From IMG/VR virus record IMGVR_UViG_3300046792_000046, positions 1 to 43,831 of that record: a stretch of DNA of 43,831 nucleotides, one strand, 5' to 3'. Shown here piece by piece: positions 1 to 43,831 of the stretch. Below the pieces are notes generated by a model that saw nothing but the letters and a program-made list of their open reading frames with translations, was not told the origin of the DNA and made no database searches. The position numbers and the translations under genes were made by a program. The stretch is from a virus. Within the stretch, counting starts at the first letter, position 1. Every line of letters starts with the position of its first letter.

Positions 1-21
1 TGAACCACTACCCGAGCTAGT

Positions 22-45
22 AGTAGAACAAGTACTTGTATTACT
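22..45. repeat. 24-bp near-palindrome at left end
   Basis: The centre (28-39) is a perfect palindrome, ACAAGTACTTGT, and the arms extend to 22 and 45 with 10 of 12 positions paired. It sits at the extreme left of the window, where a terminus, packaging site or regulatory site could lie. No function can be assigned from sequence. Confidence 0.6.
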
Positions 46-333
46 GCTTTCTGCTTCTCCTCTCTATAGTTGTTTCCTATCTCAGCGTCGTAAATCCCCT
101 GCTGTCCAGCCCGTCCAGCACCTCCTCTAAGCCTTCGGCTTAGCAGTCCGGCAGCACCCCAGTTAGCTACGTAGTAGCTAGTGGCCCTTAGTGGGTCGTT
201 AGCCGGCCGATAGCGCCGTTTGCTTGGCGAAGCCAAAGGCCGTGCCAGCCCTTTCTCAAAGGCTTTGCCTTTGGTCGGTGGCCAGAAATCGGCATGGCCC
301 GACGATTGCTACGCGCTCGCGCCAAAGCTTTAG

Positions 334-386
334 CAAGAAGCATTACAGAAGGAGCCGTTGTTTTATTCCTTCTGGAAGGCTTCTTG
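334..386. other. Strong two-helix hairpin
   Basis: CAAGAAGC (334-341) pairs perfectly with GCTTCTTG (379-386). Inside it CAGAAGGA (346-353) pairs perfectly with TCCTTCTG (367-374) around a 13-nt loop. No T-run follows on either strand, so it is not an ordinary intrinsic terminator. It is the best-supported structural element of the left noncoding region. Confidence 0.7.
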
Positions 387-427
387 TCGCTGAGATTCAA
401 AAGCAACTACAAGAGATTCAAAGTCAA

Positions 428-468
428 AAGTTCCTCACCCCTTAACAAGTGAAGGGGATTCGGAACTT
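428..468. other. Interrupted hairpin AAGTTCC/GGAACTT
   Basis: AAGTTCC (428-434) pairs with GGAACTT (462-468) and CCCCTT (438-443) pairs with AAGGGG (452-457), separated by short internal loops. A related AAGTTCC/GGAACTT arm pair occurs at the right end (43690-43712). Confidence 0.6.
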
Positions 469-697
469 CCCAAGACTTTAGAGGGCAAGCGCCGGACCCG
501 CGAAAGAACTTGCAGTACCCCGGTCAGACAGGGTGAAAGCAGTCTGATAGGCCCGGAGTTCGGGATGGGCGAGCCGACATAATCGCCGCTGAAGCCTACG
601 GCTTAGGAGCCTAACGGCGACAGGAATCCCCATCATGCAGCAAGCGCCGATAAAGACGGTCTATCGTCAGAGGGTGCCCTGCTCGGTGGCCGAAAGG

Positions 698-726
698 TTG
701 ACAGGCTAGTGGCCCGTTCCTAGGAA
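698..726 (+). promoter_or_regulatory. Possible early promoter overlapping a palindrome copy
   Basis: A perfect sigma-70 -35 hexamer TTGACA (698-703) is followed after exactly 17 nt by TAGGAA (721-726), which is part of the palindrome at 716-727. The -10 match is weak (3 of 6). If real, a protein bound to the palindrome would cover the promoter. The first gene begins about 310 nt downstream. Confidence 0.25.
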
Positions 727-727
727 C
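716..727. repeat. Dispersed palindrome, exact copy
   Basis: GTTCCTAGGAAC in the left noncoding region, placed over the possible -10 of a TTGACA promoter. Confidence 0.95.
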
Positions 728-1035
728 AATCGGAACAGTGTCGCAGTACCGTGTTAGCCCGACGAATAGTCCAAGGCATACCCGCTGTACTAGCGGATTG
801 TACAGACTGGGAATCGGGACGGAGCGACGCAAAGTTTCCGGCTAGGAAAGCCGTAGGGTGCATAAGTGGCGTCTGTCAATCGTGCTCAGGGAAGTCCTTT
901 CCCTCAGCTTGGGCATCACTAGCACCTAGGTGAATCTACCTAGGGCGTTGGTGTAAGCGGCAATCCTTTCCGTCCAATCGACACTCTCAACAGCGTAAGG
1001 CAAGGCCGCTTTCACCAGCGTATCAAGGAGCGTCC

Positions 1036-1221
1036 ATGCGAACCATCGGAAGCGTCCATCAGATTACGAAGCGCCTGACTACCGGAGCTTGGAACAACAT
1101 CGAGCTGCGCGGTCAGCGTGCCCGTAAGAAGAAGTACGAGAAGCCGGGGAAGGTGATCTATCTGGACCCGGCATTGTTCAACAAACCGGAAGGGAAAACC
1201 ACCGATGAACAAGAACTTTGA
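1036..1221 (+). CDS. Small basic protein of unknown function
   Basis: A 61-residue product starts at an ATG preceded by AAGGAG 7 nt upstream. It is rich in Lys and Arg in the middle (a RGQRARKKKYEKPGK stretch), which could suit nucleic-acid binding, but no family is recognised. It is the first gene of the rightward unit and overlaps the next gene by 17 nt, which implies translational coupling. Confidence 0.7.
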   Translation: MRTIGSVHQITKRLTTGAWNNIELRGQRARKKKYEKPGKVIYLDPALFNKPEGKTTDEQEL

Positions 1222-1663
1222 AATCGCAGCGAAGGCAGTGAAGAGCATCACGGGGAAGAGCGTTTCCCTGTGGGAAAACCTCGTCCTGTTTGCCGTGGCA
1301 ATGGACCCGACCACGGAGCCGAAGGAAAACTTCAAGACCGAAGAGCGGCTGGCGCGCACGGAAGTGAAGGTGGAAATCGGCAAGAATAGCACGTACCGCG
1401 TGGCGAAGGGCGTCATTGTCAACGCTCTGGCGAAGGGCGTGGCGCTGCTCGATGCCGACGGCAAGCCGCGTGGAAAGACGGACATCGAGGACCAATTGAA
1501 GGCAGCCAAGGTGAAGAAGTCGGCAGCCGACAGGTTCAAGATCGTGATGGCGAGCGCGAACACCATCGCGGACGAGCTGACGGACGCGGAGTGCATCAGC
1601 GCCGCTGCGTTGGCGAATGATCTGCTCAACAAGGTGAGCGCGTCTATCCGCAAGGCAGCCTAG
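1205..1663 (+). CDS. Unknown protein, paralogue of the 4608-5099 product
   Basis: A 152-residue, Ala/Lys-rich, probably helical protein. Its central part (YRVAKG, then LLDADGKPRGKTDIEDQ) matches a segment of the later gene product (WRTAKS, then LLDDTGTVKGKSGIEDE), and the order and spacing are the same. The two genes therefore look like an ancient duplication. The stop codon TAG shares its final G with the first base of a palindrome copy (1663-1674). No enzyme motif is visible. A DNA-binding or structural role in early infection is possible but unproven. Confidence 0.8.
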   Translation: MNKNFEIAAKAVKSITGKSVSLWENLVLFAVAMDPTTEPKENFKTEERLARTEVKVEIGKNSTYRVAKGVIVNALAKGVALLDADGKPRGKTDIEDQLKAAKVKKSAADRFKIVMASANTIADELTDAECISAAALANDLLNKVSASIRKAA

Positions 1664-1674
1664 TTCCTAGGAAC
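1663..1674. repeat. Dispersed palindrome, exact copy
   Basis: GTTCCTAGGAAC starts on the last base of the stop codon of the 1205-1663 gene and lies between that gene and the tRNA. Confidence 0.95.
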
Positions 1675-1689
1675 AACGGCTAGCGCAAG

Positions 1690-1755
1690 CTCAACTGCGA
1701 TACGTTGAGACGTGTCCTGCTACGTGACGTAGGTGGCAGCCGGGAATAGACCGGC
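1690..1755. other. Hairpin-rich spacer before the tRNA
   Basis: The gene-free stretch between the 1205-1663 gene and the tRNA contains CTCAAC/GTTGAG (1690-1709), a CTAC-GTGAC-GTAG hairpin near 1725 and a CCGG/CCGG stem near 1740-1754. These could be processing signals for the tRNA precursor. No ORF is visible. Confidence 0.35.
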
Positions 1756-1768
1756 AAGAACAACGAAC

Positions 1769-1854
1769 GGAGCGGACGCCCAATAGGAAGGGCACCGGGC
1801 TGTAACCCCGTGGTCGGCTAGTCCGTGGTGGTTCGACTCCACCCCGCTCCACCA
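1769..1854 (+). tRNA. tRNA-Tyr (GUA)
   Basis: An 86-nt type II tRNA can be folded by eye. The acceptor GGAGCGG (1769-1775) pairs with CCGCTCC (1844-1850), followed by discriminator A and an encoded CCA (1852-1854). The D stem is GCCC/GGGC (1778-1793). The anticodon arm has loop CTGTAAC with anticodon GTA (1802-1804) and one C-T mismatch at the base of the stem. A 15-nt variable arm contains CGG/CCG, and the T arm is GGTGG-TTCGACT-CCACC (1827-1843). The long variable arm and GUA anticodon fit bacterial tRNA-Tyr. Confidence 0.85.
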
Positions 1855-1865
1855 TCAATGGCGGG

Positions 1866-1934
1866 GAGACGGGCTGTAAGGATCACAAGTCCCGCGCTCT
1901 AACCGAGCAGCAGCAGGGTATAGCTGACCGTCCC
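1866..1934 (-). other. tRNA-like fold lacking a T arm
   Basis: On the minus strand GGGACGG (1934-1928) can pair with CCGTCTC (1872-1866). Between them lie a GCTC-GGTTA-GAGC hairpin, like a D arm, and a stem with loop CTTGTGA, whose anticodon position reads TGT (Thr). There is no T arm or CCA. It may be a decayed tRNA or an unrelated structure. The surrounding 1855-2012 interval holds no gene. Confidence 0.2.
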
Positions 1935-2012
1935 TATTGTGGACCGACGCTGCCCGCGTCTTTCCCGCCGCCCTACCCGCAGTACATCCGTAGTCCAAAC
2001 GTGGAGGTTCGC

Positions 2013-2174
2013 GTGAAGCCTGAAGTATTGCCCGTTCGTGTCGGCTACATCCTGATCGACGCGCTCCGAGAAGAAGCACATCAAAGCCGGGAGTCCGGCA
2101 ATGACAAGCGTGCTCGCCAGCTCGAAGTGGCGGCGAACAAGATGGAGTTTCTCTCCAATGAGCGACGTTCCTAG
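2013..2174 (+). CDS. Small helical protein of unknown function
   Basis: A 53-residue product starts at GTG with GGAGG 5 nt upstream. The sequence (for example DALREEAHQSRESGNDKRA, then LEVAANKMEFLS) is strongly helical and charged. Its stop codon TAG is the central TAG of a GTTCCTAGGAAC copy, the one reading phase of the palindrome that cannot occur inside a gene. It overlaps the start of the next gene by 17 nt. No family is recognised. Confidence 0.75.
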   Translation: MKPEVLPVRVGYILIDALREEAHQSRESGNDKRARQLEVAANKMEFLSNERRS

Positions 2175-2604
2175 GAACATCGGCTGGCTCGCCCTGTTCT
2201 GCATCCTTGCGCTCTACTACTCGGACAGCAGGGCTGACACCTGGCTGGACGTGACGCTCACGTCCTACCACTTCAAGCGTGAGCCGAAGCACAACGAACA
2301 CAACCTCGGCCTCGGCTTCGAGCACGACATAGCTGAGCGGTGGCGTGTGATCGGCGGCGCATACAAGAACAGTCTCTACCGTACCAGTGTGTACGCCGGA
2401 GTCTCGTACTCCTACTGGATCGAGGGACCGTGGCGTCTGTCAATTGCGGGTGGCGGCATCACCGGCTACGAGAAAGGCGTCATGCCTATCGTCGTACCTG
2501 CCCTGTCCTACGAAGGCGACCGATGGGGAGCCAACCTGTTCGTGGCTCCGCCGTTCAAAGATAGCCCCGGTGTAGCCGGGTTGCAGGTGAAGGTGAGGTT
2601 CTGA
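2158..2604 (+). CDS. Small outer-membrane beta-barrel-like protein
   Basis: A 148-residue protein with an N-terminal signal peptide (hydrophobic WLALFCILALYY, likely cleavage after SRA near residue 26). The mature part alternates Gly and aromatic residues in short beta strands (GLGFEHDI, GVSYSYW, SIAGGGITGY) and ends in a strand with terminal Phe (VKVRF), typical of outer-membrane barrels. Similar small exported proteins occur in other phages. A role in changing the infected cell surface, for example superinfection exclusion, is inference. I chose the internal ATG at 2158 over 2101 because it begins just before the signal peptide. A palindrome copy is read as VPRN near the N-terminus. Confidence 0.75.
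   Translation: MSDVPRNIGWLALFCILALYYSDSRADTWLDVTLTSYHFKREPKHNEHNLGLGFEHDIAERWRVIGGAYKNSLYRTSVYAGVSYSYWIEGPWRLSIAGGGITGYEKGVMPIVVPALSYEGDRWGANLFVAPPFKDSPGVAGLQVKVRF
2167..2178. repeat. Dispersed palindrome, exact copy
   Basis: Lies in the overlap of two genes. It supplies the TAG stop of the 2013-2174 gene and is read as VPRN in the barrel gene. Confidence 0.95.
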
Positions 2605-2843
2605 TGACGCCCGAAGATTTAGGAATTTGGATGCACTTGCTGACACATGGCAACACATCACGACAGCGTGTAGCAGGCGCAGCTTTCGACCACGAGTTTC
2701 CAAGAGGTATCACTCATGCCAAAGAAACCAGTGAAGCAGGACAGCGGCAGCAAGACCGACCACAAGGCAGCCCGCACAGCGGCGAACAAAGCCCGCAAAG
2801 CGGCAGCGTTGGAACGCCAGCGCCAGCGGTGGCTGGCACGTAA
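2604..2843 (+). CDS. Doubtful small ORF
   Basis: A 79-codon frame begins at an ATG overlapping the stop of the barrel gene by one base. Only the first 37 codons do not overlap the better-supported gene at 2716, and the C-terminal half is low in complexity (GSPHSGEQSPQSGS), as expected for a shadow frame. A short genuine protein here is possible but unproven. Confidence 0.25.
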   Translation: MTPEDLGIWMHLLTHGNTSRQRVAGAAFDHEFPRGITHAKETSEAGQRQQDRPQGSPHSGEQSPQSGSVGTPAPAVAGT

Positions 2844-2919
2844 CACCACAACCAGGGGCACGGCTCGCGCGAAGAGGCGTGTACATCTGCAACCTGAAGC
2901 TCAGCAACAGGCGGCGTGA
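2716..2919 (+). CDS. Lys/Arg/Ala-rich small protein
   Basis: A 67-residue, very basic product (KKPVKQ, ARTAANKARKAAALERQRQRW, RAKRR) starts at an ATG with AAGAGG about 9 nt upstream. The composition suggests nucleic-acid binding or an unstructured tail. Its stop overlaps the next start as TGATG. No family is recognised. Confidence 0.6.
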   Translation: MPKKPVKQDSGSKTDHKAARTAANKARKAAALERQRQRWLARNTTTRGTARAKRRVHLQPEAQQQAA

Positions 2920-3149
2920 TGGCTGTCTCGTTCCTAGGAACATTCGGCATCTTCGATGTGGACGGCACTGTCGTTCCCATCGACAAAACGCAGGCTTTAC
3001 GACTGAAGGAATTGCTCCCTGATGGCCGTAACACTGGCGGCTATGTCGAGGCAATCAAGATGGTGCGTGATAAGCACAACCTCGGTCTGAAGGAAGCGAA
3101 GGATTTTGTGGACCACTACGAAGCTCACCACTTAGGTTCACGCAAGTAG
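2919..3149 (+). CDS. Protein with ribosomal L7/L12 C-terminal-like module
   Basis: A 76-residue product. The C-terminal half (AIKMVRDKHNLGLKEAKDFV) closely follows the conserved helix-turn of the ribosomal protein bL12 C-terminal domain (KxVRxxxxLGLKEAKxxV), which in the ribosome recruits translation GTPases. The N-terminal half has no visible homology. bL12-like genes are known in some phages, and a role in redirecting host translation factors is inference. Start ATG 2919 is preferred over GTG 2916 because it forms the TGATG overlap with the upstream gene. Confidence 0.75.
   Translation: MAVSFLGTFGIFDVDGTVVPIDKTQALRLKELLPDGRNTGGYVEAIKMVRDKHNLGLKEAKDFVDHYEAHHLGSRK
2930..2941. repeat. Dispersed palindrome, exact copy
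   Basis: Read as FLGT near the start of the L7/L12-like gene. Confidence 0.95.
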
Positions 3150-3162
3150 CAACGGGCAGTGG

Positions 3163-3204
3163 CTTCGCCGTGGTTGAGCGGCGAAGTACAAACATGCGCT
3201 CAAC
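3163..3204 (+). promoter_or_regulatory. Bistable RNA hairpin pair
   Basis: CTTCGCCG (3163-3170) pairs perfectly with CGGCGAAG (3179-3186). GTTGAGCG (3173-3180) pairs equally well with CGCTCAAC (3197-3204). The second stem uses the loop and first bases of the first, so only one can form. The element lies in the 116-nt spacer before the 3266 gene. It has the form of an attenuator or translational switch, but no T-run follows. Confidence 0.5.
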
Positions 3205-3265
3205 AACGACAAGTGCTGCCTGTCCCACCCATTCCCTGTAGTTCAACTCGTAAAGGAGAAGCAAG

Positions 3266-3469
3266 ATGGTCGTCGGAAAGAACGTGGCAATCGAAGTGAG
3301 CGGCAGCATGGCGCACGTTGCCGTGGACATGGCGAAGGATCAGGGTGCCAGCAAGACCGGTAAGAGCGTCATCATCGGCACCACGGGTGGCAAGCACATC
3401 GAAGTCCCCGGCAATCCGGGCGTGTTCTTCACGCTCACGATGTATCGGAAGAACGCGCCGAAGGCGTGA
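3266..3469 (+). CDS. Small beta-rich protein of unknown function
   Basis: A 67-residue product with an excellent ribosome site (AAAGGAGAAGCAAG before ATG). The sequence (VAIEVSGSMAHVAVDM, SVIIGTTGG, FFTLTMYRK) suggests a compact beta fold. No family is recognised. Its stop overlaps the next start as ATGA. Confidence 0.75.
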   Translation: MVVGKNVAIEVSGSMAHVAVDMAKDQGASKTGKSVIIGTTGGKHIEVPGNPGVFFTLTMYRKNAPKA

Positions 3470-4032
3470 TGGACCAGCAGACCAGCACAAGTCCGGTCCA
3501 GTTGGGCAACGGGGACGCAGCTCGCACCGCAGCGAAAGCTGTGCTCAGAGTGCAAGCTGCTATCCCCGAGCAGTTCAGAAACAAAGCCCCGTTCGGGATC
3601 GACAGTCGTGTTGCATCGTGGTTCTTCGATAAGTTCCTGCCGCTCATTAGGTTCGGCAAGGTGCAAGTTGACACGTTCCAATACGAAGGCAAGCCCTACC
3701 ACAGAGTCACACTCAGCGTGCCCTTCCGTACCAGCACGTTCGTCGTCAATGCGTTCGGCGCTCACGGTGTGACCAGTACGTTGATTCGGTTCTTGCCAAT
3801 GACAGCGTTTGGTATGGCCATGCCCAACCTCTTGCTTCAAGACTTCGCCGGGACCGGAGACATCTACGTGCCGGGATGGGCGGCCCCGGAGTTGGCCGAG
3901 GACTTCATGAATCTGGTCCGCATCCACAAAGCACGAGTGGAGTTCGGACTCGACGAGCTGCGTCGCAGTCAGCTTCCGTTCCTAGGAACAGACAGCGACG
4001 CCGAGCAAGACAGCAAGCCGACGTTGCACTAG
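3469..4032 (+). CDS. Unknown 187-residue early protein
   Basis: Begins at the ATG within a GTGATG overlap with the previous gene. It has a helical N-terminal region (AARTAAKAVLRVQAAIP) and a central beta-rich region (VDTFQYEGKPYHRVTLSVPF). The acidic C-terminal tail contains a palindrome copy read as FLGT. No catalytic motif or known family is recognised. Confidence 0.75.
   Translation: MDQQTSTSPVQLGNGDAARTAAKAVLRVQAAIPEQFRNKAPFGIDSRVASWFFDKFLPLIRFGKVQVDTFQYEGKPYHRVTLSVPFRTSTFVVNAFGAHGVTSTLIRFLPMTAFGMAMPNLLLQDFAGTGDIYVPGWAAPELAEDFMNLVRIHKARVEFGLDELRRSQLPFLGTDSDAEQDSKPTLH
3978..3989. repeat. Dispersed palindrome, exact copy
   Basis: Read as FLGT near the C-terminus of the 3469-4032 product. 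Confidence 0.95.
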
Positions 4033-4038
4033 ACACAG

Positions 4039-4287
4039 ATGTACGTCCTGTTCAGTAGTTCACTTCGCATGTACCTCACAAGGGAGAACGCTACGGAGAT
4101 TGCGGTAACTCCCGTGCGTGCGAAGGCTGTGCAATTCAGGACGAAAAAAGAAGCACTCTCCTTCAGGGAAGAGCGCCTGCACAGTGCCTCACAGAAACTC
4201 TTCGAGGTACAAGACGCATCAACTGGAGAGAAACATGCTGGAAAGAAACGGTCGAGACATAAGGTACTTCCATCTACGGACACGTAA
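4039..4287 (+). CDS. Small unknown protein
   Basis: An 82-codon frame starts 6 nt after the previous stop and overlaps the next gene by 53 nt. It is charged and predicted helical (KKEALSFREERLHSASQKLFEVQ). The ribosome site is weak. No family is recognised. Confidence 0.5.
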   Translation: MYVLFSSSLRMYLTRENATEIAVTPVRAKAVQFRTKKEALSFREERLHSASQKLFEVQDASTGEKHAGKKRSRHKVLPSTDT

Positions 4288-4570
4288 CAACGGAGTGCCG
4301 TCCAACAAAGGCGGCTACACCGTAGCAGTGAAGAGCAGGCCAAACGGGTTGTACTCCGTGAGTATCTGCCAGTGCAATTCCAATCAGGTGTACGACGAGA
4401 AGCTCGGTGAGAAGGTGGCCGAGCAACGCATCGGCAGCGGCAAGTTTTTCGTCCAGTCGAGGGCGGAATTGATTGCCACTCTCAACACCCTGCACACCAA
4501 GCTGTCGTCGGGCACTGTCGTGCGTCTCGATCTGAGCGAGCTTGGCGAAACGGAGAAGAAAGCGGCCTGA
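4235..4570 (+). CDS. Unknown 111-residue early protein
   Basis: The start is the ATG at 4235, preceded by GGAGAG 7 nt upstream. The longer frame from 4118 has a poor start and shadow-like composition. The product has an N-terminal beta-rich part (GGYTVAVKSRPNGLYSVSIC) and a C-terminal helix ending in EKKAA. No family is recognised. Confidence 0.7.
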   Translation: MLERNGRDIRYFHLRTRNNGVPSNKGGYTVAVKSRPNGLYSVSICQCNSNQVYDEKLGEKVAEQRIGSGKFFVQSRAELIATLNTLHTKLSSGTVVRLDLSELGETEKKAA

Positions 4571-4607
4571 CGTTCAACGCATCACACCACGCAAAGGGAA
4601 TAAGAAC

Positions 4608-5099
4608 GTGAGCGTCAACGAGAGCAACCCACTATACGAAGCCTGTGTTGGCTTCATGGTGGCGGAGAAGTCTGAGGCAGACAGTTGGGAGAAGGTGGCC
4701 CGGTTTGTCCAGACCAAGGTGGACAACGGCAGCGGCGACGAGGCGCAACTCAAGGCCGAGTTCTCCGTGGTCGAGAAGCAGATCAAGAAGGACTTCAGCG
4801 TGACCACACTGCCCACTGCGTGGCGCACGGCGAAGAGCACGGCAATGTCAGCGGCACGAGCAGAGGTCAGTCTGCTTGACGACACGGGCACAGTGAAGGG
4901 AAAGAGCGGCATCGAAGATGAAGTGCGCGGAAAGAAACTCGGCACAGATGTGCCCACCCTCGTCGAGAAGATTGTCGCTGACCTTAGCAACTCAGCTTCA
5001 CGGATGACAGGACTGCGCATCACGTCCCTCGATATGTTGCTGCTCGACGCGGCTGTCGAATCCGTCAACTACGCAAGGAGAACCTGCGTCGATGCTTAA
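4608..5099 (+). CDS. Unknown protein, paralogue of the 1205-1663 product
   Basis: A 163-residue product from a GTG with AAGGGA upstream; the only longer start would be TTG at 4542. The segment WRTAKS to GIEDEV aligns with YRVAKG to DIEDQL of the earlier gene, and the remainder has similar helical composition. The gene overlaps the start of the VWA/zincin gene by 8 nt, so it is coupled to the CobT/CobS-like pair and may work with it. No motif defines its function. Confidence 0.75.
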   Translation: MSVNESNPLYEACVGFMVAEKSEADSWEKVARFVQTKVDNGSGDEAQLKAEFSVVEKQIKKDFSVTTLPTAWRTAKSTAMSAARAEVSLLDDTGTVKGKSGIEDEVRGKKLGTDVPTLVEKIVADLSNSASRMTGLRITSLDMLLLDAAVESVNYARRTCVDA

Positions 5100-6879
5100 C
5101 CATCTGGAAATGGAACGGTACGTCGCAGCCACCGCTCGTCGGGCGGACATGCGCGTGCAGTGGGAACCCATCGAAGCGCCCCGCACAGATGGCAAGACCA
5201 TCTTCCTGCCCGCTATGGGTGCGGGCATCAGCCAGAAGGACTACAACCGGGTGCGGCACTTCGTTACCCACGAGGTAGACCACAACCTGTACACCGACTT
5301 CAAGAATCCAACCGCTATCGAGAAGGGGGTCAACTCCAGCAGCAGCTTGCTCGGTGCGATTTGGAATTTGAACGAGGACCACCGCATCGAGTTCCTAGGA
5401 ACACAGGAATACGAAGGCGACAGGCTGTGCTCCAACGATGTGTACGGCGACATCATGGACCAGCTCGCTGACGGGCTACGCAAGAACCCCAACCCCAATC
5501 TGGCGGACACGTTCCTGCCTCTCGCAGCGTGGTCGAACAAGGCATGGGCCGACTACTACCCGAGCGCCCATCTCGTGCAGGAATCCATCGAAGCTCGCCT
5601 GTCACCAAAGGCGAAGGCTTACTACGACAAGTTGAACAAGGGAGATTACCTGGATGTTCTTAGGAACATTCGGGAAGAGGCCGATCCCACGAAGGGCACG
5701 CAAGCCACGCTCGAACTGTCGCGCCGCATCTTCGACGAGGTGTATGGCGGCGACCACGAGAAGGAAGAGGAACGCTGCAAGCAACTGAAGCAAGCGCAGC
5801 AAGGTGAGGGTGGCGGTGAAGAAGGGGAAGAAGGCAAGGACAAAGGGAAGGGCAAAGCTAAGGGCAAGGGCACGCAGCAAGGTGAGGGCGAAGGTGAGCG
5901 CGACGACAGTGAAGGTCCGCCGATCAACGTGGACTACACATCAGTGATACGAGAAGCCCACGCCCCGGACCAAGGCGTTACCAAACGGGGAATGCACATC
6001 AACTACGGCGGTTTCCGTGGCACCAACAGCTACGTTCCGCCGACGGAGAAAGACTTCCTTGTACGGGACATGACGAACAACTCGGTGCCGCGCCGCTCTT
6101 CGGAGCCTGAGTATTACGAAGGCTCCATCAAGGACGCGCTGGCCAACACGTCGAGTGGCTTTGCTCATCGGGTACGCACCATCCTGCAAATCCGCAACCG
6201 GGACAAGTATCAGTACGGAACGAAGCGAGGCAAGCTGCACAACAGTGCGCTTCACCGGGTGCTGGTGAAGGATGTGCCCGGCTACGACGAGCGCATCTTC
6301 AAGAAGAAGCAGGTGAACAACGTACTCGACGCCGCTATCACGCTGATCGTCGATCAGTCTGGTTCGATGGGTGGCGATAAGTTTGTTCACGCATCGGCCG
6401 CTGCGGTGATGCTCAGCGAGACAGTGGGGAACATCCTGCACATCCCCACGGAAATCATCAGCTTCTCCACCGAGAGCGCACGCAGCAGCATCTTCATCCA
6501 CCGCAAGTTCAACGACAAGCTGGTATCCCGCGAGGACTTGACGCGCCGCTTCAACAAGGCTGCCGAGTACGGCATGTCCAGTAATGGGGATGGTGAGGCA
6601 ATCCTGTGGGCGTTCGACCGCATCATCCAGCGCAAGGAGAAACGCAAACTCATCGTGGTGTTCAGCGATGGCAGTCCTGCCTATGGCCAGCGTGGTGACG
6701 ATATGTACTACGCCAAGAAGGTGGTTCACGACATCGAAAAGGATTCGCCCGTGGACATCGTGGGCATCGGCATCATGGATCGGAACGTCGAGCTGATTTA
6801 CAAGGAGCATCAGGTCATCAAGAAGGCACACGAACTTGAGGGCGTGCTGTTGGCTCTCATCGAAAACAAACTGAAGTGA
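5092..6879 (+). CDS. CobT-like VWA protein with N-terminal zincin motif
   Basis: A 595-residue protein. The N-terminal part has an HEXXH motif (HEVDH, residues 60-64) followed near residue 94 by NEDHRIE, the arrangement seen in zincin-type CobT/VWA relatives. The middle is a Lys/Glu/Gly-rich low-complexity linker (about 225-280). The C-terminal part is a von Willebrand A domain with MIDAS residues DQSGS (421-425) and a later FSDGS (Asp 526). VWA proteins of this type pair with MoxR/CobS AAA+ ATPases, as in cobaltochelatase, and equivalent pairs are known in N4-like phages. Its partner ATPase is the next gene. Chelatase activity is not implied; a chaperone or remodelling role is more likely. 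The start has AAGGAG 10 nt upstream. Two palindrome copies fall inside (FLGT, VLRN). Confidence 0.9.
   Translation: MLNHLEMERYVAATARRADMRVQWEPIEAPRTDGKTIFLPAMGAGISQKDYNRVRHFVTHEVDHNLYTDFKNPTAIEKGVNSSSSLLGAIWNLNEDHRIEFLGTQEYEGDRLCSNDVYGDIMDQLADGLRKNPNPNLADTFLPLAAWSNKAWADYYPSAHLVQESIEARLSPKAKAYYDKLNKGDYLDVLRNIREEADPTKGTQATLELSRRIFDEVYGGDHEKEEERCKQLKQAQQGEGGGEEGEEGKDKGKGKAKGKGTQQGEGEGERDDSEGPPINVDYTSVIREAHAPDQGVTKRGMHINYGGFRGTNSYVPPTEKDFLVRDMTNNSVPRRSSEPEYYEGSIKDALANTSSGFAHRVRTILQIRNRDKYQYGTKRGKLHNSALHRVLVKDVPGYDERIFKKKQVNNVLDAAITLIVDQSGSMGGDKFVHASAAAVMLSETVGNILHIPTEIISFSTESARSSIFIHRKFNDKLVSREDLTRRFNKAAEYGMSSNGDGEAILWAFDRIIQRKEKRKLIVVFSDGSPAYGQRGDDMYYAKKVVHDIEKDSPVDIVGIGIMDRNVELIYKEHQVIKKAHELEGVLLALIENKLK
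5391..5402. repeat. Dispersed palindrome, exact copy
   Basis: Read as FLGT directly after the NEDHRIE motif of the VWA/zincin protein. Confidence 0.95.
5656..5667. repeat. Dispersed palindrome, one-mismatch copy
   Basis: GTTCTTAGGAAC, read as VLRN in the VWA/zincin gene, only 265 bp after the previous copy. Confidence 0.85.
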
Positions 6880-6909: not shown

Positions 6910-8007
6910 ATGATCGAGCTGGAAGCGAAGGTGAAGGAAGCGTTGCGCAAGCAACTGCTGGAGCGGGGCGCGGCGAACGCTGTGATGGCTGCGCCGGAAC
7001 CCACTCCGACCCCGGCTGAGCCGGAGAAGGAAATCGAGGTTGTGCTCAAGGCCAACCAAGTGCTGTTCAGCAAGCTGACCGGCACGACCAAGACCGAACT
7101 GAAGAAGCGCAAGCTGCGCGACTTCGCGGTGACGCTGCTGGACGTGGCGTCCATCCCGACGCAGGTCAAGGCGTTCATCCCCACCAAGAACACGGCCTAC
7201 AACATCCAGGTGGACGAGGCCCATGCGCTGATGTTCGCTTGGGAATTGGGCGAGAAGGTGCTCATCACTGGCCCGACAGGTTCGGGCAAGTCCAGCCTCA
7301 TCGAGTACTGCTGCGCCCTCACCCATCGACCGCTCATCCGGGTCAACATGACCGGCGACATGGAGTCGGCAGTGCTGTTCGGGCAGCTCGTGGTGGAGAA
7401 CGGCGGCACCGTCTGGAAGGATGGGCCGGCTACCGAGGCCGTGCGCTACGGTGCGGTGCTGCTCAATGACGAGTGGGACGTGACCCCGCCCGAGATTTTG
7501 TTCGGCTTCCAGTGGTTGTTCGAGGACAAGGGCAAGCTGTTCCTCAAGGAAATGCCGGGCGACTCGGAGAGCAAGTTCATCACGCCACACGACAACTTCC
7601 GCATGGTGTGTGCCGGTAACACAGTGGGCCAAGGTGACGATACGGGCCGCTACTCTGGCACCAACGTGCAGAACAACGCCACCATCGACAGGTTCCAGAC
7701 CACAATCGTGCTGGACTACCTCGACGCGGTACACGAAACCAAGATCATCGAGGACAACTGCACCGGCCTGTGGCCGGGATTCGCCAACAAGATGGTGAGC
7801 TTCGCCAACCTCGTTCGCACGGCGTCGAAGCAGAACAACATCAACCTCACCATGTCGCCCCGCACCCTCATCAACTGGGGACGCAAGGCCGTGGTGATGA
7901 ACGACATGAAGCGAGCACTGGTCCTCTCGTTCGTGAACAAACTCCGCGACACCGACCGCAAGATTGTGTCCGAGTTCTACACGAAGGTGTTCGGCGGGAC
8001 GCTGTAG
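6910..8007 (+). CDS. MoxR/CobS-like AAA+ ATPase
   Basis: A 365-residue AAA+ ATPase. Walker A is GPTGSGKS (residues 121-128). Walker B-like LLNDEWD has acidic residues 187-188. Later AAA+ elements include a sensor-like FRMVCAGNTVG and an arginine-rich C-terminal helix. Its position after the VWA gene reproduces the MoxR-VWA partnership, in which ATP hydrolysis remodels a target presented by the VWA protein. CobS-like ATPases occur in many phages with unknown targets. The N-terminal 100 residues are helical and may bind the partner. The stop TAG shares its G with the next palindrome copy. Confidence 0.9.
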   Translation: MIELEAKVKEALRKQLLERGAANAVMAAPEPTPTPAEPEKEIEVVLKANQVLFSKLTGTTKTELKKRKLRDFAVTLLDVASIPTQVKAFIPTKNTAYNIQVDEAHALMFAWELGEKVLITGPTGSGKSSLIEYCCALTHRPLIRVNMTGDMESAVLFGQLVVENGGTVWKDGPATEAVRYGAVLLNDEWDVTPPEILFGFQWLFEDKGKLFLKEMPGDSESKFITPHDNFRMVCAGNTVGQGDDTGRYSGTNVQNNATIDRFQTTIVLDYLDAVHETKIIEDNCTGLWPGFANKMVSFANLVRTASKQNNINLTMSPRTLINWGRKAVVMNDMKRALVLSFVNKLRDTDRKIVSEFYTKVFGGTL

Positions 8008-8018
8008 TTCCTAGGAAC
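8007..8018. repeat. Dispersed palindrome, exact copy
   Basis: Starts on the last base of the ATPase stop codon. It is read as VPRN in the integrase frame. Confidence 0.95.
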
Positions 8019-8633
8019 GAAGAGAATGCCAGAGACAGGTACGTCGAACACCTTGAGCTGCGCCGCTTTGCCAAGCGATGCTGTCCAGATTGGCTCCGTG
8101 CCTATCTACTCCTCAAGTACCTCACCGGACTACGTATGGGTGACATGCTTCGGCTCGACAATTCGGCTGAAGGTGCGCGAGGACTCGTCGTCAGGATCGG
8201 TAAAAGCAGACGACGTAAGGTTCTGGAATTCAGATGGACAAGGGCGCTACGCACCACAGTTGGATTCATTCATCGACTTGGGCAAGGTGAAGCTGAGCAC
8301 GCTGACCAACCCAAAGGAAAAGCAGATAGCGACCGATGCCCGAGACGGGAAGTCGGTGAAGAATCGAATGGTAGCTCGTCTCACCAACAATTCTTCCGAA
8401 CTCGATCTGGTGGACGACTCAGTGTCAGTGGGTTTAAGAGTGCGTGGCGACGTGCCATGCAGCAATGGAAAGGATTAGGGAATGAACCCTTCAGAGAACA
8501 CGACATCCGAGGAAAAACCGGAAGCGATAGTGGAACTCTCGCTGAAGCATCCGAGCGCCTTGGCCATGACCGCACCAGTACCACTGCTAAGCACTACCGG
8601 CGGGGTGTCAGTAGGGTCCGTCCCCTCCGGTAG
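8007..8633 (+). CDS. int: Tyrosine recombinase (integrase) catalytic domain, start unresolved
   Basis: The frame encodes a complete tyrosine-recombinase catalytic core: the box I Arg in LTGLRMGDMLRL (codon 8133), a beta-hairpin Lys (8202), HxxR in HDIRGKTG (8499-8510), LGH (His at 8565) and the nucleophile Tyr in KHYRRG (8595). The protein would join phage DNA at attP, about 350 bp downstream, with a host tRNA gene. There is no ATG, GTG or TTG in this frame between the upstream ATPase sequence and ATG 8136, which lies inside box I. The only near-cognate codon is CTG 8058. The usual N-terminal core-binding domain is absent. Expression could need a frameshift from ATG 8026 or from the ATPase gene, or this may be a truncated gene or contain a sequence error. 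The coordinates mark the open frame from the ATPase stop. Confidence 0.75.
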   Translation, partial: VPRNEENARDRYVEHLELRRFAKRCCPDWLRAYLLLKYLTGLRMGDMLRLDNSAEGARGLVVRIGKSRRRKVLEFRWTRALRTTVGFIHRLGQGEAEHADQPKGKADSDRCPRREVGEESNGSSSHQQFFRTRSGGRLSVSGFKSAWRRAMQQWKGLGNEPFREHDIRGKTGSDSGTLAEASERLGHDRTSTTAKHYRRGVSRVRPLR

Positions 8634-8940: not shown

Positions 8941-8976
8941 ACACTTGCGGTTTTCTTAGACAGGACCACACGTAAG

Positions 8977-9025
8977 TGGCGGAGCGGACGGGACTCGAAC
9001 CCGCGACCCCCGGCGTGACAGGCCG
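8977..9025 (-). other. attP: attP core: 3' part of a tRNA-Asp gene
   Basis: Read on the minus strand, these 49 nt run from the 5' side of the anticodon stem through the loop CTGTCAC (anticodon GTC, Asp), variable loop GGGTC, T arm GCGGG-TTCGAGT-CCCGT, acceptor CCGCTCC, discriminator G and CCA. They agree with proteobacterial tRNA-Asp sequences as I recall them. The 5' half of the tRNA (D arm, acceptor 5' strand) is missing, so it is not a functional tRNA. A 3' tRNA fragment next to an integrase is the classical attP core, which restores the host tRNA on integration. Confidence 0.85.
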
Positions 9026-39869: not shown

Positions 39870-40357
39870 CTTTTCACCAGAGAAAGACCGAGACGCTTGG
39901 CGTCCTCAGCCACTTTCGACTTTGCTTCTTGTTCAGCGGAATCACCTTCCTCCCGCTGCTTCTTGTTGCGCTTATCTCGGGGCGAGAACCCTGCTTCGGC
40001 CAGCCACTTCGCGGCCATCGTTCCCTTGTTGCCCTTGCTCTGCTTCACAATTTCGACGATGGCTTCCGAGCGCACCTTCACTTCCACTTCCCTGCGCCAC
40101 TGCTCCAACTCAGCCAGGAACGGCTTGGAAGTGAGGAGTGCCTGCCAGTGCTCCCAATCCCCGATGAGCACCATCGCTGCCTTGTACTCCGTCGGATCGG
40201 ACAGCTCGACGTAGGTCTTGCGCCAGTCGGCCAACTTGAACACTGGCTTGATGGAACTGGCAGGATCGGCCAATTCCTCGAACAACCCCGTGGTCAGCTT
40301 GCGGCCGGTGGTGTCTATGAGGACGTGCTTGAATGCCTCATAGTCGAAAGGCTTCAC
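39866..40357 (-). CDS. terS: Probable terminase small subunit
   Basis: A 163-residue helical, charged protein (WRKTYVELSDPTEYKAAMVL, GDWEHWQALLTSKPFLAELE) with a very basic/acidic C-terminal tail. It precedes the large terminase gene with one gene between and has the size and helical content of DNA-recognition subunits of podovirus terminases. GTG 40357 overlaps the holin-like gene stop as GTGA. The longer frame has a Cys-rich, shadow-like N-terminus. Confidence 0.65.
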   Translation of the reverse strand: MKPFDYEAFKHVLIDTTGRKLTTGLFEELADPASSIKPVFKLADWRKTYVELSDPTEYKAAMVLIGDWEHWQALLTSKPFLAELEQWRREVEVKVRSEAIVEIVKQSKGNKGTMAAKWLAEAGFSPRDKRNKKQREEGDSAEQEAKSKVAEDAKRLGLSLVKR

Positions 40358-40845
40358 GACTGGTCTGCCAGAATTTGACTGGTTTTGCCACGCTGCCAAG
40401 CCGTCACACCGAGCACCGAACCCACGGCCATGAATGCAAACTCGGGGATCACGGGCACAGCAATCTTCAGCAGGGGCAGTACGAAGTACACCCCAATGAC
40501 AAACACGATGAAGGCGCTGCACTCGAAGGCGTGATGGTTGCGCTGCCAGAAACTCCCACCGGCTTGCTCAGCCTGGAGTGTCTTGTTCACTGCCTCAACC
40601 TGGGCTGTGGCCGCAGCGAGTTGGGCTTTGGCCAGGTCCGTCTCCAGCTCCTTCAGCTTCGTGAGCTGGTCGCCGTTCAGCGAACCAAGAGTGGCAGCCA
40701 CCTGCTCAGGGGTGGAGTCCTTCGACAGCCCTATCGCAGCCAGCAAACCCTTCGCTGCCACGGCTCCAGCCGGGCCTGCGATGGCTGCCCCGAGGATCGG
40801 CAAACCCAGGTTGGCCAGGGTTGTGGCAATGGACTTGAGGTCCAT
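40354..40845 (-). CDS. 3TM holin-like membrane protein
   Basis: A 163-residue protein. A hydrophobic N-terminal helix (LGLPILGAAIAGPAGAVAA) is followed by a coiled-coil-like middle (LTKLKELETDLAKAQLAAAT) and two C-terminal transmembrane segments (SAFIVFVIGVYFVLPLL, FAFMAVGSVLGVTAW). The layout resembles the three-TM holins of gene-transfer-agent type. ATG 40845 overlaps the upstream stop. Confidence 0.7.
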   Translation of the reverse strand: MDLKSIATTLANLGLPILGAAIAGPAGAVAAKGLLAAIGLSKDSTPEQVAATLGSLNGDQLTKLKELETDLAKAQLAAATAQVEAVNKTLQAEQAGGSFWQRNHHAFECSAFIVFVIGVYFVLPLLKIAVPVIPEFAFMAVGSVLGVTAWQRGKTSQILADQS

Positions 40846-41201
40846 CAAATCGACTCAGCTTTATGAAACTGCGACCATTCCGCATGGGCAGGAACAGCTT
40901 GTCCATGCGAGACAACAGACGCCCACACATCATCACCGTCCCGAATCCAGCACATCGAAAGGCTGTGTCCATCCCGATAAACCATGCCCTTTTGAAACTT
41001 CGAGGCCAGTTCTTCAGTGACGATGGACAGCGCCACCTTGTCAGTGCAAGGCACGCCTTCGTAAAGGTAGACTTTGGTGTGCTCTCCCTCAGCGACAAAA
41101 GTGTTCCTAGGAACACTTGCATCAGCAAGTGTTTCTCCCTTGACAAGCGTCGAGAAAAACAACATCACGGCGAGTACTATCGCCAGCAACTTCTTTCTCA
41201 C
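40845..41201 (-). CDS. Small exported protein
   Basis: A 118-residue protein with an N-terminal signal peptide (RKKLLAIVLAVMLFFSTLVKG) and a soluble part with two Cys (VPCTDK, MCWIRDGDD). GTG 41201 has GGAGG 5 nt upstream. It lies between two holin-like genes, so a role in lysis is possible. A palindrome copy with the longest symmetric flanks in the genome is read as VPRN just after the signal peptide. Confidence 0.75.
   Translation of the reverse strand: MRKKLLAIVLAVMLFFSTLVKGETLADASVPRNTFVAEGEHTKVYLYEGVPCTDKVALSIVTEELASKFQKGMVYRDGHSLSMCWIRDGDDVWASVVSHGQAVPAHAEWSQFHKAESI
41099..41118. repeat. Dispersed palindrome, exact copy with extended 20-bp symmetry
   Basis: The 12-bp core (41103-41114) is flanked by AAGT and ACTT, giving a perfect 20-bp palindrome. 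An adjacent hairpin (AACACTTG, 41112-41119, with CAAGTGTT, 41126-41133) competes for the right arm. Confidence 0.95.
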
Positions 41202-41210
41202 TGCTACCTC

Positions 41211-41390
41211 CTACGGCTGCTTGTGCAGCTTCTTGATGAGGTTTTGTACTGTGCGTGTCTCGTAAATCCGAATGCAAGTCCAGATGAGTGAAGCACCCGC
41301 AGCTACCGCTGGTAGCCACTGCAACAGTGTTGCGCCCACAACTCCAAGCGACAGCAAGTCGCCACCTGCCTTAAGGTGCTCCATTCTCAT
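41211..41390 (-). CDS. Class II-like small holin
   Basis: A 59-residue protein. A short N-terminal region (MRMEHLKAGGDLLSLG) is followed by hydrophobic segments (VVGATLLQWLPAVAAGASLIW) and a basic amphipathic tail (IRIYETRTVQNLIKKLHK), typical of small phage holins. ATG 41390 lies 3 nt after the upstream stop, with GGGTAGG as a possible ribosome site. With the endolysin at the other end of the late unit it would set lysis time. Confidence 0.75.
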   Translation of the reverse strand: MRMEHLKAGGDLLSLGVVGATLLQWLPAVAAGASLIWTCIRIYETRTVQNLIKKLHKQP

Positions 41391-41393
41391 GGC

Positions 41394-41687
41394 CTACCCG
41401 TTCAGCAGTTCATAGGCCGGGCCAACAACAGCCGGTCCAAACGCCTTGCCGATGAGCTGCTTCACCTTTGCAGCCTCTTCAGGAGTCAGCTCAACGCTTT
41501 CACTGGCATTGATACGCAGCGCAAGCTTGTAGCGCGTGAACTTCTCTTCGCCGCCTACCGACTGCTCATCTTGGTAGGGCAGCATCAGAGCAGCCGTAGC
41601 TACACTACGGAGCGTGGCTTCTTTGTCACTGTCTTTCAAAGCTTCGCCCTGCAAGTTCTTCAGCACCACCATTACATCCACCTTCAC
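41394..41687 (-). CDS. Unknown conserved late protein
   Basis: A 97-residue product from GTG with AAAGGAAG upstream. The C-terminal part (ESVELTPEEAAKVKQLIGKA, FGPAVVGPAYELL) recurs in small phage proteins next to tail fibre genes. Its role is unknown. Confidence 0.75.
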   Translation of the reverse strand: MKVDVMVVLKNLQGEALKDSDKEATLRSVATAALMLPYQDEQSVGGEEKFTRYKLALRINASESVELTPEEAAKVKQLIGKAFGPAVVGPAYELLNG

Positions 41688-41710
41688 ACTGCTTCCTTTC
41701 GCTTAGTTGA

Positions 41711-43618
41711 TTAGACGAGTGTCACTGACTTCAAAGTACCAGCGTCGTTGTAGAACAACTTCACCGTGCCACCAGAAGTATCTTTCCACACTGTAAATTG
41801 ACTCGCGCTCAAATCTGCTAGAGCAAGAGCACCTGCACCACTTCTTGCCTTTAGAATCACACCATTTCCGCCAGCCAACCCAACTGCAAATATATCGGCA
41901 ACACTGTTTTGTGTGATGTACTGAAGTCCAATCAAGTCACCACTGTTGGCACCGTTGCGCCAATTGATTGCACCACCATTGTTGAGTGCAATTTGGCCAC
42001 TTGACGAAACTGGTGCACCGCCATTGGTAACAGTTATTTGGTTGCTGTTGACCACAAAACAATTGCCAATAGCTACCCCACCCCCAGTTGCAGCAATGGT
42101 CGGGTTGCCAGCAGCAGAGCCGGTGATGATGATGTTGCGGGTTGCGGAGGCAGTGTGAAGAATTTGAAGTTGGGTTGGCCCTGCGCCAAAAGCATCGGTG
42201 ATGAAGGTGAATACTCCCGTACCTTTTGTGCGAAGCAGACCTGTGACGTTGGCATCGCTTCCAGTGAACGAAAGTGCAGCCGGATTCCCTGTGGTGTTTC
42301 CGACAACTTCGATATGATTTGTGAGCGTCGTACCGCCATGATTCACTACAAAACCAGTTTCCCCGCCATTCGTCTTGAGCGAAAGCGACCCGGTTGTGCC
42401 GGAGTCGATGATGGGGGTGAACACGGCGGCGATTCTTTGCGACGAGATTCCTAGTGTTGGTCCATTGTCAACATTGGGGGATAACTGAGTCGTATTGGCA
42501 AACCAAGTATTTACGCCGTTGACTTGAAGCTGAACAGAAGTTCCGGTAGCTGAATTTAGGTCTAGCGTTCCGGTACTACTCACCAGCGGCGTCACCACGC
42601 TCGTACCGAAGGTTCCAGAAGCGAAGCGGTTGCCAACGTTCCCAAGGCTCATTGCGTTGTCAACAGCAGGATTGATGGCTACGTTGTTGTATTGCAGAGC
42701 GATAGAACCGTTGTATTTGAGACTGACAATGGTAGCCGTGTCTGTTCCAAGCAGCGGCGTCACCACGCTTCCGACGGTCACAGCGCCAGTCGCCAGATCG
42801 AGCACCATCCGATTGGCAATACCCTGGTCGTTGAAGTTCAGGACATTCCCCTGCTGCTGAATCTGCGCGTTCTTCGTAGCGCCAGAAGAAGGCACGAATA
42901 GAAGTTGTGGGGTGGGCACCGCACCCAATTGAACAAGGGGTGTCACGACACTCACCGGGACCGTCACAACTCCCGCAGTGCCAATTGACAACTGAGAAGC
43001 AGCAGTTAGCGTTGCGTCGTTGTAGTCCGCAAGACCACTTGTTACCCCAAAAAGGAAAGCTCCTGAAGCCCCACCTGCAATGAAGAATTCTTTGGCACCT
43101 GCTCTAAAGAATGAGAGTACGGGTGCCTTGTTTGCGGCAGCGTCGCCAGTTATACGAATCGAGTGCTGACCTCCATCTGATAGACCAACTTGAATATCGG
43201 AATTGCCTGAAGCACCATTCACGCCAGTAACACGCACCACCCCATTAACCTGAAGGGTAGACGAGGGAACATTGGTTCCAATCCCAAGCCGCTTGTTCGT
43301 GTTGTCCCAAGCGAGATTGGAGTCTTGGGTGAGTCCTGCTCCATTGCCGAAGATGAGCAGGCCAGCAAACACTGTGCTAGCCAGGGTGGGGAGCAGTCCT
43401 ACATCCTGCTTGCGCAGCGGCTCCGTGGCGTTGACTGGAGCAGGGAGATTGAGGATGCGCTGGCTGTTGGCATCCAGGTTGGCGAGCAGGGTATTGGGTG
43501 ATGTGCCGTCACGAGAGACGGTGTTATCCATCGCCGCAACAATGGCGGCGAAGTTGGCGTTGAGCACGGCAATGTCGCCGTAGCCGCCAGTGAGAGTGGA
43601 GAGGGAGAGCTTGGACAC
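41711..43618 (-). CDS. Tail fibre protein
   Basis: A 635-residue Gly/Thr/Asn/Val-rich beta-repeat protein. The N-terminal region (LNANFAAIVAAMDNTVSRDG, NTLLANLDANSQRILNLPAP) is the virion-attachment segment common to many phage fibres; the rest consists of repeated beta strands likely to trimerise and bind the host surface. The ORF ends without a recognised peptidase or chaperone domain. GTG 43618 has AAGAGG upstream. It is the first gene of the leftward late unit and contains no palindrome copy that I found. Confidence 0.85.
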   Translation of the reverse strand: MSKLSLSTLTGGYGDIAVLNANFAAIVAAMDNTVSRDGTSPNTLLANLDANSQRILNLPAPVNATEPLRKQDVGLLPTLASTVFAGLLIFGNGAGLTQDSNLAWDNTNKRLGIGTNVPSSTLQVNGVVRVTGVNGASGNSDIQVGLSDGGQHSIRITGDAAANKAPVLSFFRAGAKEFFIAGGASGAFLFGVTSGLADYNDATLTAASQLSIGTAGVVTVPVSVVTPLVQLGAVPTPQLLFVPSSGATKNAQIQQQGNVLNFNDQGIANRMVLDLATGAVTVGSVVTPLLGTDTATIVSLKYNGSIALQYNNVAINPAVDNAMSLGNVGNRFASGTFGTSVVTPLVSSTGTLDLNSATGTSVQLQVNGVNTWFANTTQLSPNVDNGPTLGISSQRIAAVFTPIIDSGTTGSLSLKTNGGETGFVVNHGGTTLTNHIEVVGNTTGNPAALSFTGSDANVTGLLRTKGTGVFTFITDAFGAGPTQLQILHTASATRNIIITGSAAGNPTIAATGGGVAIGNCFVVNSNQITVTNGGAPVSSSGQIALNNGGAINWRNGANSGDLIGLQYITQNSVADIFAVGLAGGNGVILKARSGAGALALADLSASQFTVWKDTSGGTVKLFYNDAGTLKSVTLV

Positions 43619-43664
43619 TACGAACGCCTCTTGTTGGGCGCTTCAAAAGGTGTGGTGCTTGAGA

Positions 43665-43679
43665 AGATTTAGACAGCAG
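43665..43679 (-). promoter_or_regulatory. Late-leader motif, copy 2
   Basis: Second copy of AGATTTAGACA-N-CAG with CTT four bases before it, about 50 nt upstream of the tail fibre start. A promoter or activator role is inferred only from the repeat and its position. Confidence 0.4.
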
Positions 43680-43689
43680 ATACGAAAGA

Positions 43690-43717
43690 AAGTTCCTTGT
43701 ACTAGGGAACTTTTCTA
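43690..43717. terminator. Hairpin at the right end, possible terminator
   Basis: AAGTTCC and GGAACTT arms enclose TTGTACTAG. On the plus strand TTCT follows, and on the minus strand the arm is followed by TCTTTCG. It could stop transcription crossing the genome ends in either direction. The arms resemble those of the 428-468 hairpin. Confidence 0.4.
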
Positions 43718-43727
43718 GTGTGGCATT

Positions 43728-43739
43728 GTTCCTAGGAAC
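43728..43739. repeat. Dispersed palindrome, exact copy
   Basis: Noncoding, in the leader region of the late unit, 110 bp upstream of the tail fibre gene. The remaining 92 bp to the window end hold no gene that I can support. Confidence 0.95.
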
Positions 43740-43831
43740 ATCTCCTTGTAGTGTTTGCCTGACATACAACTACCTGGGGATATGAAAAATTTGTGAGCGA
43801 ATTGGGAGCGGTCAAGTGCATTCTAAAAGCG

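Follow-up and report, generated by a model that had tools for sequence, protein, structure and literature searches.

The stretch from position 131 to 1035 of the window, the 43,831-bp virus record analysed here at its full length, is probably a left-end control region beside the genome terminus, with a sigma-54-type promoter and an early leader of about 0.7 kb that carries covarying hairpins near its 5' end. We hold this reading, which is built on sequence comparison, with moderate confidence. Comparison with related phages shows the position of the region, a gene-free gap throughout the family, homology across 131-482, covariation of one hairpin (h3) and a clade-wide concentration of sigma-54-type motifs in the region. 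The coordinates of the features are collected in Table 1.

Table 1. Features of the gene-free gap and its flanks in the window.
Feature	Position	Strand	Remarks
3' part of hydrophobic 54-aa ORF (probable)	1-130	+	start codon in the missing 165 nt (L004 3931)
Hairpins h0 (204-207/215-218) and h1 (225-228/232-235)	204-236		upstream of putative early promoter; arms replaced between phages
Complementary pair GCCGTGCC (239-246) / GGCATGGC (291-298)	239-298		complementary in window, L022 and L026; encloses hairpin h2 (257-273)
Sigma-54-like site TGGCCCG-ACGA-TTGCT, TGGCCCGACGATTGCT	295-310	+ (early sense)	predicted start about 320-322
Hairpin h3	331-389	+	homologous in window, L022 and L196, and in L026 by position and arms
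Hairpin h4	420-479	+	420-425/474-479, 428-434/462-468, 438-443/452-457
Remainder of putative leader	483-1020	+	weakly conserved; best pair window-L026
Copy of palindrome GTTCYTARGAAC	716-727		within the gap
First early gene	1036-1221	+	61 aa, no family
Early protein gene	1205-1663	+	152 aa; relatives in L022 and L026 at 39-42% identity
Tail-fibre gene	41711-43618	-	first of the divergent late block
Last bases before C-rich terminus motif	43805-43830	+	contig break here; L004 continues ACCCCCGACCCCC

Probable genome terminus and the gene-free gap

By its terminase, DNA polymerase and CobT-like proteins the window lies near the Zobellviridae; it is a Zobellviridae-like podophage contig. Late genes occupy the minus strand on its right side, early genes the plus strand on its left, and the two blocks diverge around a gene-free gap, the arrangement of a Zobellviridae-type control region. 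Another contig, L004, matches window positions 40031-43830 and 1-6131 exactly and bridges the two ends with 165 nt that are absent from the window; 1-1035 is therefore the gap that separates the divergent late and early blocks and no free map end. The window stops one base short of a C-rich motif that also opens the direct terminal repeats (DTRs) of relatives. The pattern CCCCC-N(1-4)-CCCCC does not occur in the window and occurs once in L004, one base past the last matching base of the window, while in the 40-kb genome of ICBM1 it is found only at the two DTR starts. In the Lentibacter phages ICBM1 and ICBM2, cobaviruses of the Zobellviridae, DTRs begin at the gap, as described by Bischoff et al. 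2019 (PMC6775973), and carry ACCCCC-NN-CCCCC in their first bases. Like the window, the cobaviruses have a gene-free stretch between divergent blocks; in them it adjoins DTRs of 159-173 bp with an ACCCCC-rich opening, and the 165 nt missing between 43831 and 1 are of about this length. We infer that the contig break is the genome terminus and that the 165 nt are a candidate DTR. The cobavirus left ends differ from that of the window in showing no detectable sequence homology to it.

The first-pass annotation saw no credible gene in 1-1035. For 131-1035 the list of open reading frames bears this out, but not for 1-130, which is probably the end of a putatively coding ORF: window positions 2-130 extend a reading frame whose ATG and GGGAG sit in the missing 165 nt, for a total of 54 aa. 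Hydrophobic ORFs occupy the same place in the related phages L022 and L026, and in L024 the counterpart reading frame stops early. Pfam and PHROG profiles gave no match to the first two flanking genes, and a search of viral_contigs for the 152-aa family returned only three records that were already known. The tRNA-Tyr gene noted 730 bp downstream is present at 1769-1854, 734 bp past 1035; at its place L026 has a tRNA with anticodon TTA (2322-2394, minus strand; called tRNA-Stop), a possible ochre suppressor. Two small early genes further on, at 2101-2604 and 2916-3149, match PagP (phrog_3600) and the ribosomal L7/L12 C-terminal domain (PF00542), respectively.

A gene-free stretch of at least 640 bp lies at the same place in nine of ten annotated relatives (range 640-1753 bp): ICP2 (1753 bp), MEP401 (at least 1092 bp), CVT22 (about 1054 bp, spanning the ends of the record), ICBM1 (910 bp including the repeat), CRP-5 (820 bp), ICBM2 (740 bp including the repeat), MEP402 (695 bp), P12053L (about 669 bp, spanning the ends of the record) and VP41s3 (about 640 bp). 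The single exception is MW202697, with a gap of 12 bp. These counts leave out an automated gene-gap scan of 38 of 80 terminase loci, in which gene calls were unreliable. The premise that phage genomes rarely keep 1 kb without genes thus fails for this family.

The early half of the window also contains a dispersed palindrome, GTTCYTARGAAC, spaced every 1-2 kb between genes and inside them, where it encodes VPRN or FLGT. There are 27 copies in the window (for example at 716, 1663, 2167, 2930, 8007 and 43728), against about 0.01 expected. The palindrome also occurs in L003, L022-L027, L112 and G010 and is absent from ICP2, ICBM1 and MEP402; its copies are perhaps dispersed repressor sites resembling the stoperators of mycobacteriophages. 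The tyrosine integrase gene of the window (8005-8633) is missing its N-terminal part, which is present in L003, where the gene is full (2244-3257). The difference between the two amounts to 1036 bp and is bounded by two copies of the palindrome, one at the MoxR stop and the other within the integrase. After the integrase, about 53 bp (8972-9025) are 96% identical to phage tRNA-Asp genes and are probably an attachment site. A search for prophage relatives in genome_contigs gave a single irrelevant match.

Conserved hairpins in the left part of the gap

The region had been described as strongly structured. It does fold above chance, with a z-score of -5.4 for positions 1-500 and none of 100 shuffles equally stable, but within its own genome it does not stand out as extreme: taken in 400-nt windows, the region reaches a z-score of -4.1 at best, 66 control windows of this genome go down to -4.0, and only three of the 31 perfect stems in the genome (at least 8 bp, loop up to 45) fall within the first 1.1 kb. 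The folding excess is far larger in the relatives L022 and L026 (z-scores of about -10 to -13; -11.7 and -13.2 for their stretches homologous to this one). The gap of the Methylophilales phage MEP402 (L018 43338-43738) has a z-score of -8.4 on the plus strand and no visible homology to the window.

Positions 131-482 are homologous among the window, L022 and L026, with pairwise scores of 94.5-110.5 compared with 58.5-73.5 for the best shuffle (0/300 as high for each of the three pairs). Positions 483-1020 are weakly conserved: shuffles scored as high in 6/300 cases for window-L026, 40/300 for window-L022 and 80/300 for L022-L026, and on these tests a candidate conserved RNA in this part ("RNA-B") was rejected. 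No DNA similarity to phage records was detected for window positions 1-4000 or for the corresponding regions of L026 and L022.

The two coaxial 8-bp perfect helices reported at 334-386 were recovered exactly (334-341/379-386 and 346-353/367-374), within hairpin h3. Read outward from a CAG/CTG anchor, the arms of h3 align without gaps over 15 columns in four phages (the window, L022, L026 and L196). In columns 1-11, 39 of 44 cells pair; when the 3' arms are exchanged between phages, the count falls to 19, 19, 20, 20, 25, 25, 25, 26 or 31 of 44. One column shows A-T, T-A, C-G and G-C across the four phages, and the first column is an A.G mismatch kept in all four. For three sequences aligned with MAFFT (L026 was left out of this model alignment because its 5' arm was misplaced), pairing holds in 93.8% of 48 cells, and none of 500 shuffles and no slid version had a covariation score as high. 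The proposed check of the region's stems for covariation found compensatory changes, the mark of a structured RNA leader, in h3, the hairpin of about 60 nt that the formal test covered; the other helices were hand-picked. In these alignments the shape of h3 is conserved across related phages while its sequence changes. Its paired columns include G.U and no A.C on the early strand, and these few G.U pairs lean towards an RNA of the early strand. Blind detection of further homologues with a covariance model, a second mark of such a leader, failed: a model of the three h3 sequences (R2), run over 171 sources (94+77), found nothing below E 2 except its own members, and up to E 10 it recovered neither L026 nor any convincing new phage.

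Several hairpins of 131-482 hold their place and pairing in the window, L022 and L026 while their arms are replaced, as seen in a hand-picked helix set in which h2 was located wrongly (its inner part in all three phages, its outer part in L026), as was h0 in L026. At the position of h4, L022 and L026 have a hairpin with different arms, and by eye so do L196 and L110. L110 also has a hairpin of roughly 30 bp at about 970-1040 (T-run CCCCCC / GGGGGG A-run), right before the first early gene.

The complementary pair at 239-298 was tried as a conserved RNA helix and set aside. The early core model R1 recovered L022 only at E 1.7 and matched L109 and L112 on the opposite strand, which led to the sigma-54 reading described below; the helix is now kept as ambiguous only. 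The pair may represent inverted promoter -24 elements instead of an RNA helix. The few G.U pairs of this pairing fall on the early strand.

Sigma-54-like sites in the control region

Promoters recognised by sigma-54 (RpoN) have the consensus TGGCACG-N4-TTGCW, in which the GG of the -24 element and the GC of the -12 element are 10 bp apart. The site at 295-310 of the window has GG and GC at this distance and is one mismatch from the consensus, with TGGCCCG instead of TGGCACG in the -24 element. No other site within one mismatch of the consensus occurs in the window, and this count of one compares with 0.4 expected from shuffles, so the window by itself gives no significant site.

The evidence from relatives is broader. 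A string conserved among them, GGCATGG..TTGCTAC, fits the sigma-54 consensus. Exact matches to TGGCAYRNNNNTTGCW number 13 in 11 related records (two for a reversed-pattern control), and 12 of the 13 lie within the control region: four in L110, three in G010/L196, two in L026 and one each in L024, L112 and L109. The thirteenth is inside an ORF of L025, and the records of the window, L022, L003 and L023 have none. Across 77 tail-fibre loci, the 95 kb of sequence lying upstream of the fibre start held six sites and the other 536 kb two (reversed control 0); all six come from three of the 77 loci, which makes this a feature of the clade, largely shared with palindrome GTTCYTARGAAC. In the window, L022 (where the site carries TAGCA), L026 and L196, h3 comes after a site that has its GG and GC in place. 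Direct pairs of sites, 25-29 bp apart, occur in L110 and L196, and L022, L024 and L026 additionally hold copies in the late sense. Outside the clade, the gaps of ICP2, ICBM1 and MEP402 have no site of one mismatch or less, a point in which ICBM1 differs from the window. A search with the pattern GTGCCAG..GGCATGG..TTGCTAC returned five records, three of them judged from context to be chance matches and two already known.

A scan of the region for sigma-70-like promoters found none (1.1 expected in shuffles). The sigma-54 activator domain (PF00158) was not found in the window, and its matches in relatives are confined to genes whose place beside CobT leads us to read them as MoxR/CobS-like ATPases. 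As no phage-encoded activator was found, a host activator would be needed; this sets the phages apart from sigma-54 promoters elsewhere, as does the location of the site in a phage control region. Among the papers listed by literature searches on phage sigma-54 promoters, none deals with RpoN control of early phage genes.

A putative early leader and its alternatives

Under the control-region reading, the site at 295-310 would direct host RNA polymerase with RpoN to begin early transcription at about 320. Hairpin h3 would begin about 10 nt after the start and h4 about 100 nt after it, and the two may protect or process the 5' end of the transcript, as RNase III sites or 5' stabilisers. The untranslated leader would extend for about 0.7 kb, its last 540 or so bases poorly conserved, until the early genes begin at 1036. 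L196 has sites, h3, an h4-like hairpin (by eye) and gene in this order within about 220 nt. The left end of phage T7 has a terminal repeat, several hundred gene-free bases, early promoters and a processed early mRNA, and hairpins at the 5' ends of early T7 mRNAs protect them or are cut by RNase III. The window resembles T7 in having several hundred gene-free bases with putative early promoters beside a candidate terminal repeat, and it differs in that the T7 early promoters are of the sigma-70 type and the hairpins are unrelated in sequence.

The motifs could instead bind another protein, such as a phage initiator or regulator, with the early genes transcribed from ordinary promoters that our scan missed. 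We regard this as unlikely, though deserving of weight: the direct pairs of motifs in L110 and L196 recall iterons or operators, no sigma-54 activator of the phages' own was found, and the site of the window is imperfect. However, TGGCAYR-N4-TTGCT fits a promoter consensus of 12 positions that was known independently, with the four spacer bases variable, and the region yielded no sigma-70-like site. The leader hairpins may be real even if another protein binds the motifs. That they act as DNA near the terminus, forming cruciforms or primers when concatemers are processed or the genome is replicated or packaged, appears improbable. The region adjoins the candidate DTR, and both of its strands fold about equally while its stems contain very few G.U pairs, which leaves room for inverted repeats at the DNA level. 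Against this, h3 and the 239-298 pair have their few G.U pairs on the early strand, the A.G mismatch of h3 is conserved in four of four phages, and the hairpins lie just downstream of the promoter-like site and away from the DTR itself.

The first-pass annotation had raised the possibility of a large noncoding RNA in the style of GOLLD or ROOL; that such an RNA occupies the region as an independent transcript we consider very improbable. Like those RNAs, the region is long, gene-poor and structured, and a tRNA gene lies downstream. It differs from them in giving no covariance-model match and in that formal covariation is limited to h3. The Rfam search that had been proposed gave no match at the gathering score in the region or in its relatives, and the GOLLD, ROOL, group I and group II intron models had no match in the region even at E values up to 10. 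Positions 483-1020 are hardly conserved, an 81-aa ORF interrupts the region in L022, and in L196 the promoter-like sites lie only about 220 nt from the gene. The plainer alternative of the same annotation, a structured leader or terminus, fared better, given the compensatory changes in h3 and the adjoining inferred genome end. The control-region reading accounts for a gene-free kilobase without a giant RNA.

More broadly, and tentatively, this Zobellviridae-like clade may place its early genes under sigma-54 promoters, sometimes tandem or divergent, that need a host enhancer-binding protein, with several members having a leader of 5' hairpins that evolve fast in sequence and are conserved in shape; we put the chances of this somewhat below even. 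Leader hairpins that change quickly yet stay paired offer a testable 5'-end element. Phages are normally transcribed with host sigma-70 or by their own polymerase, and a control region of the RpoN type would, if confirmed, tie infection to host signals for nitrogen or stress.
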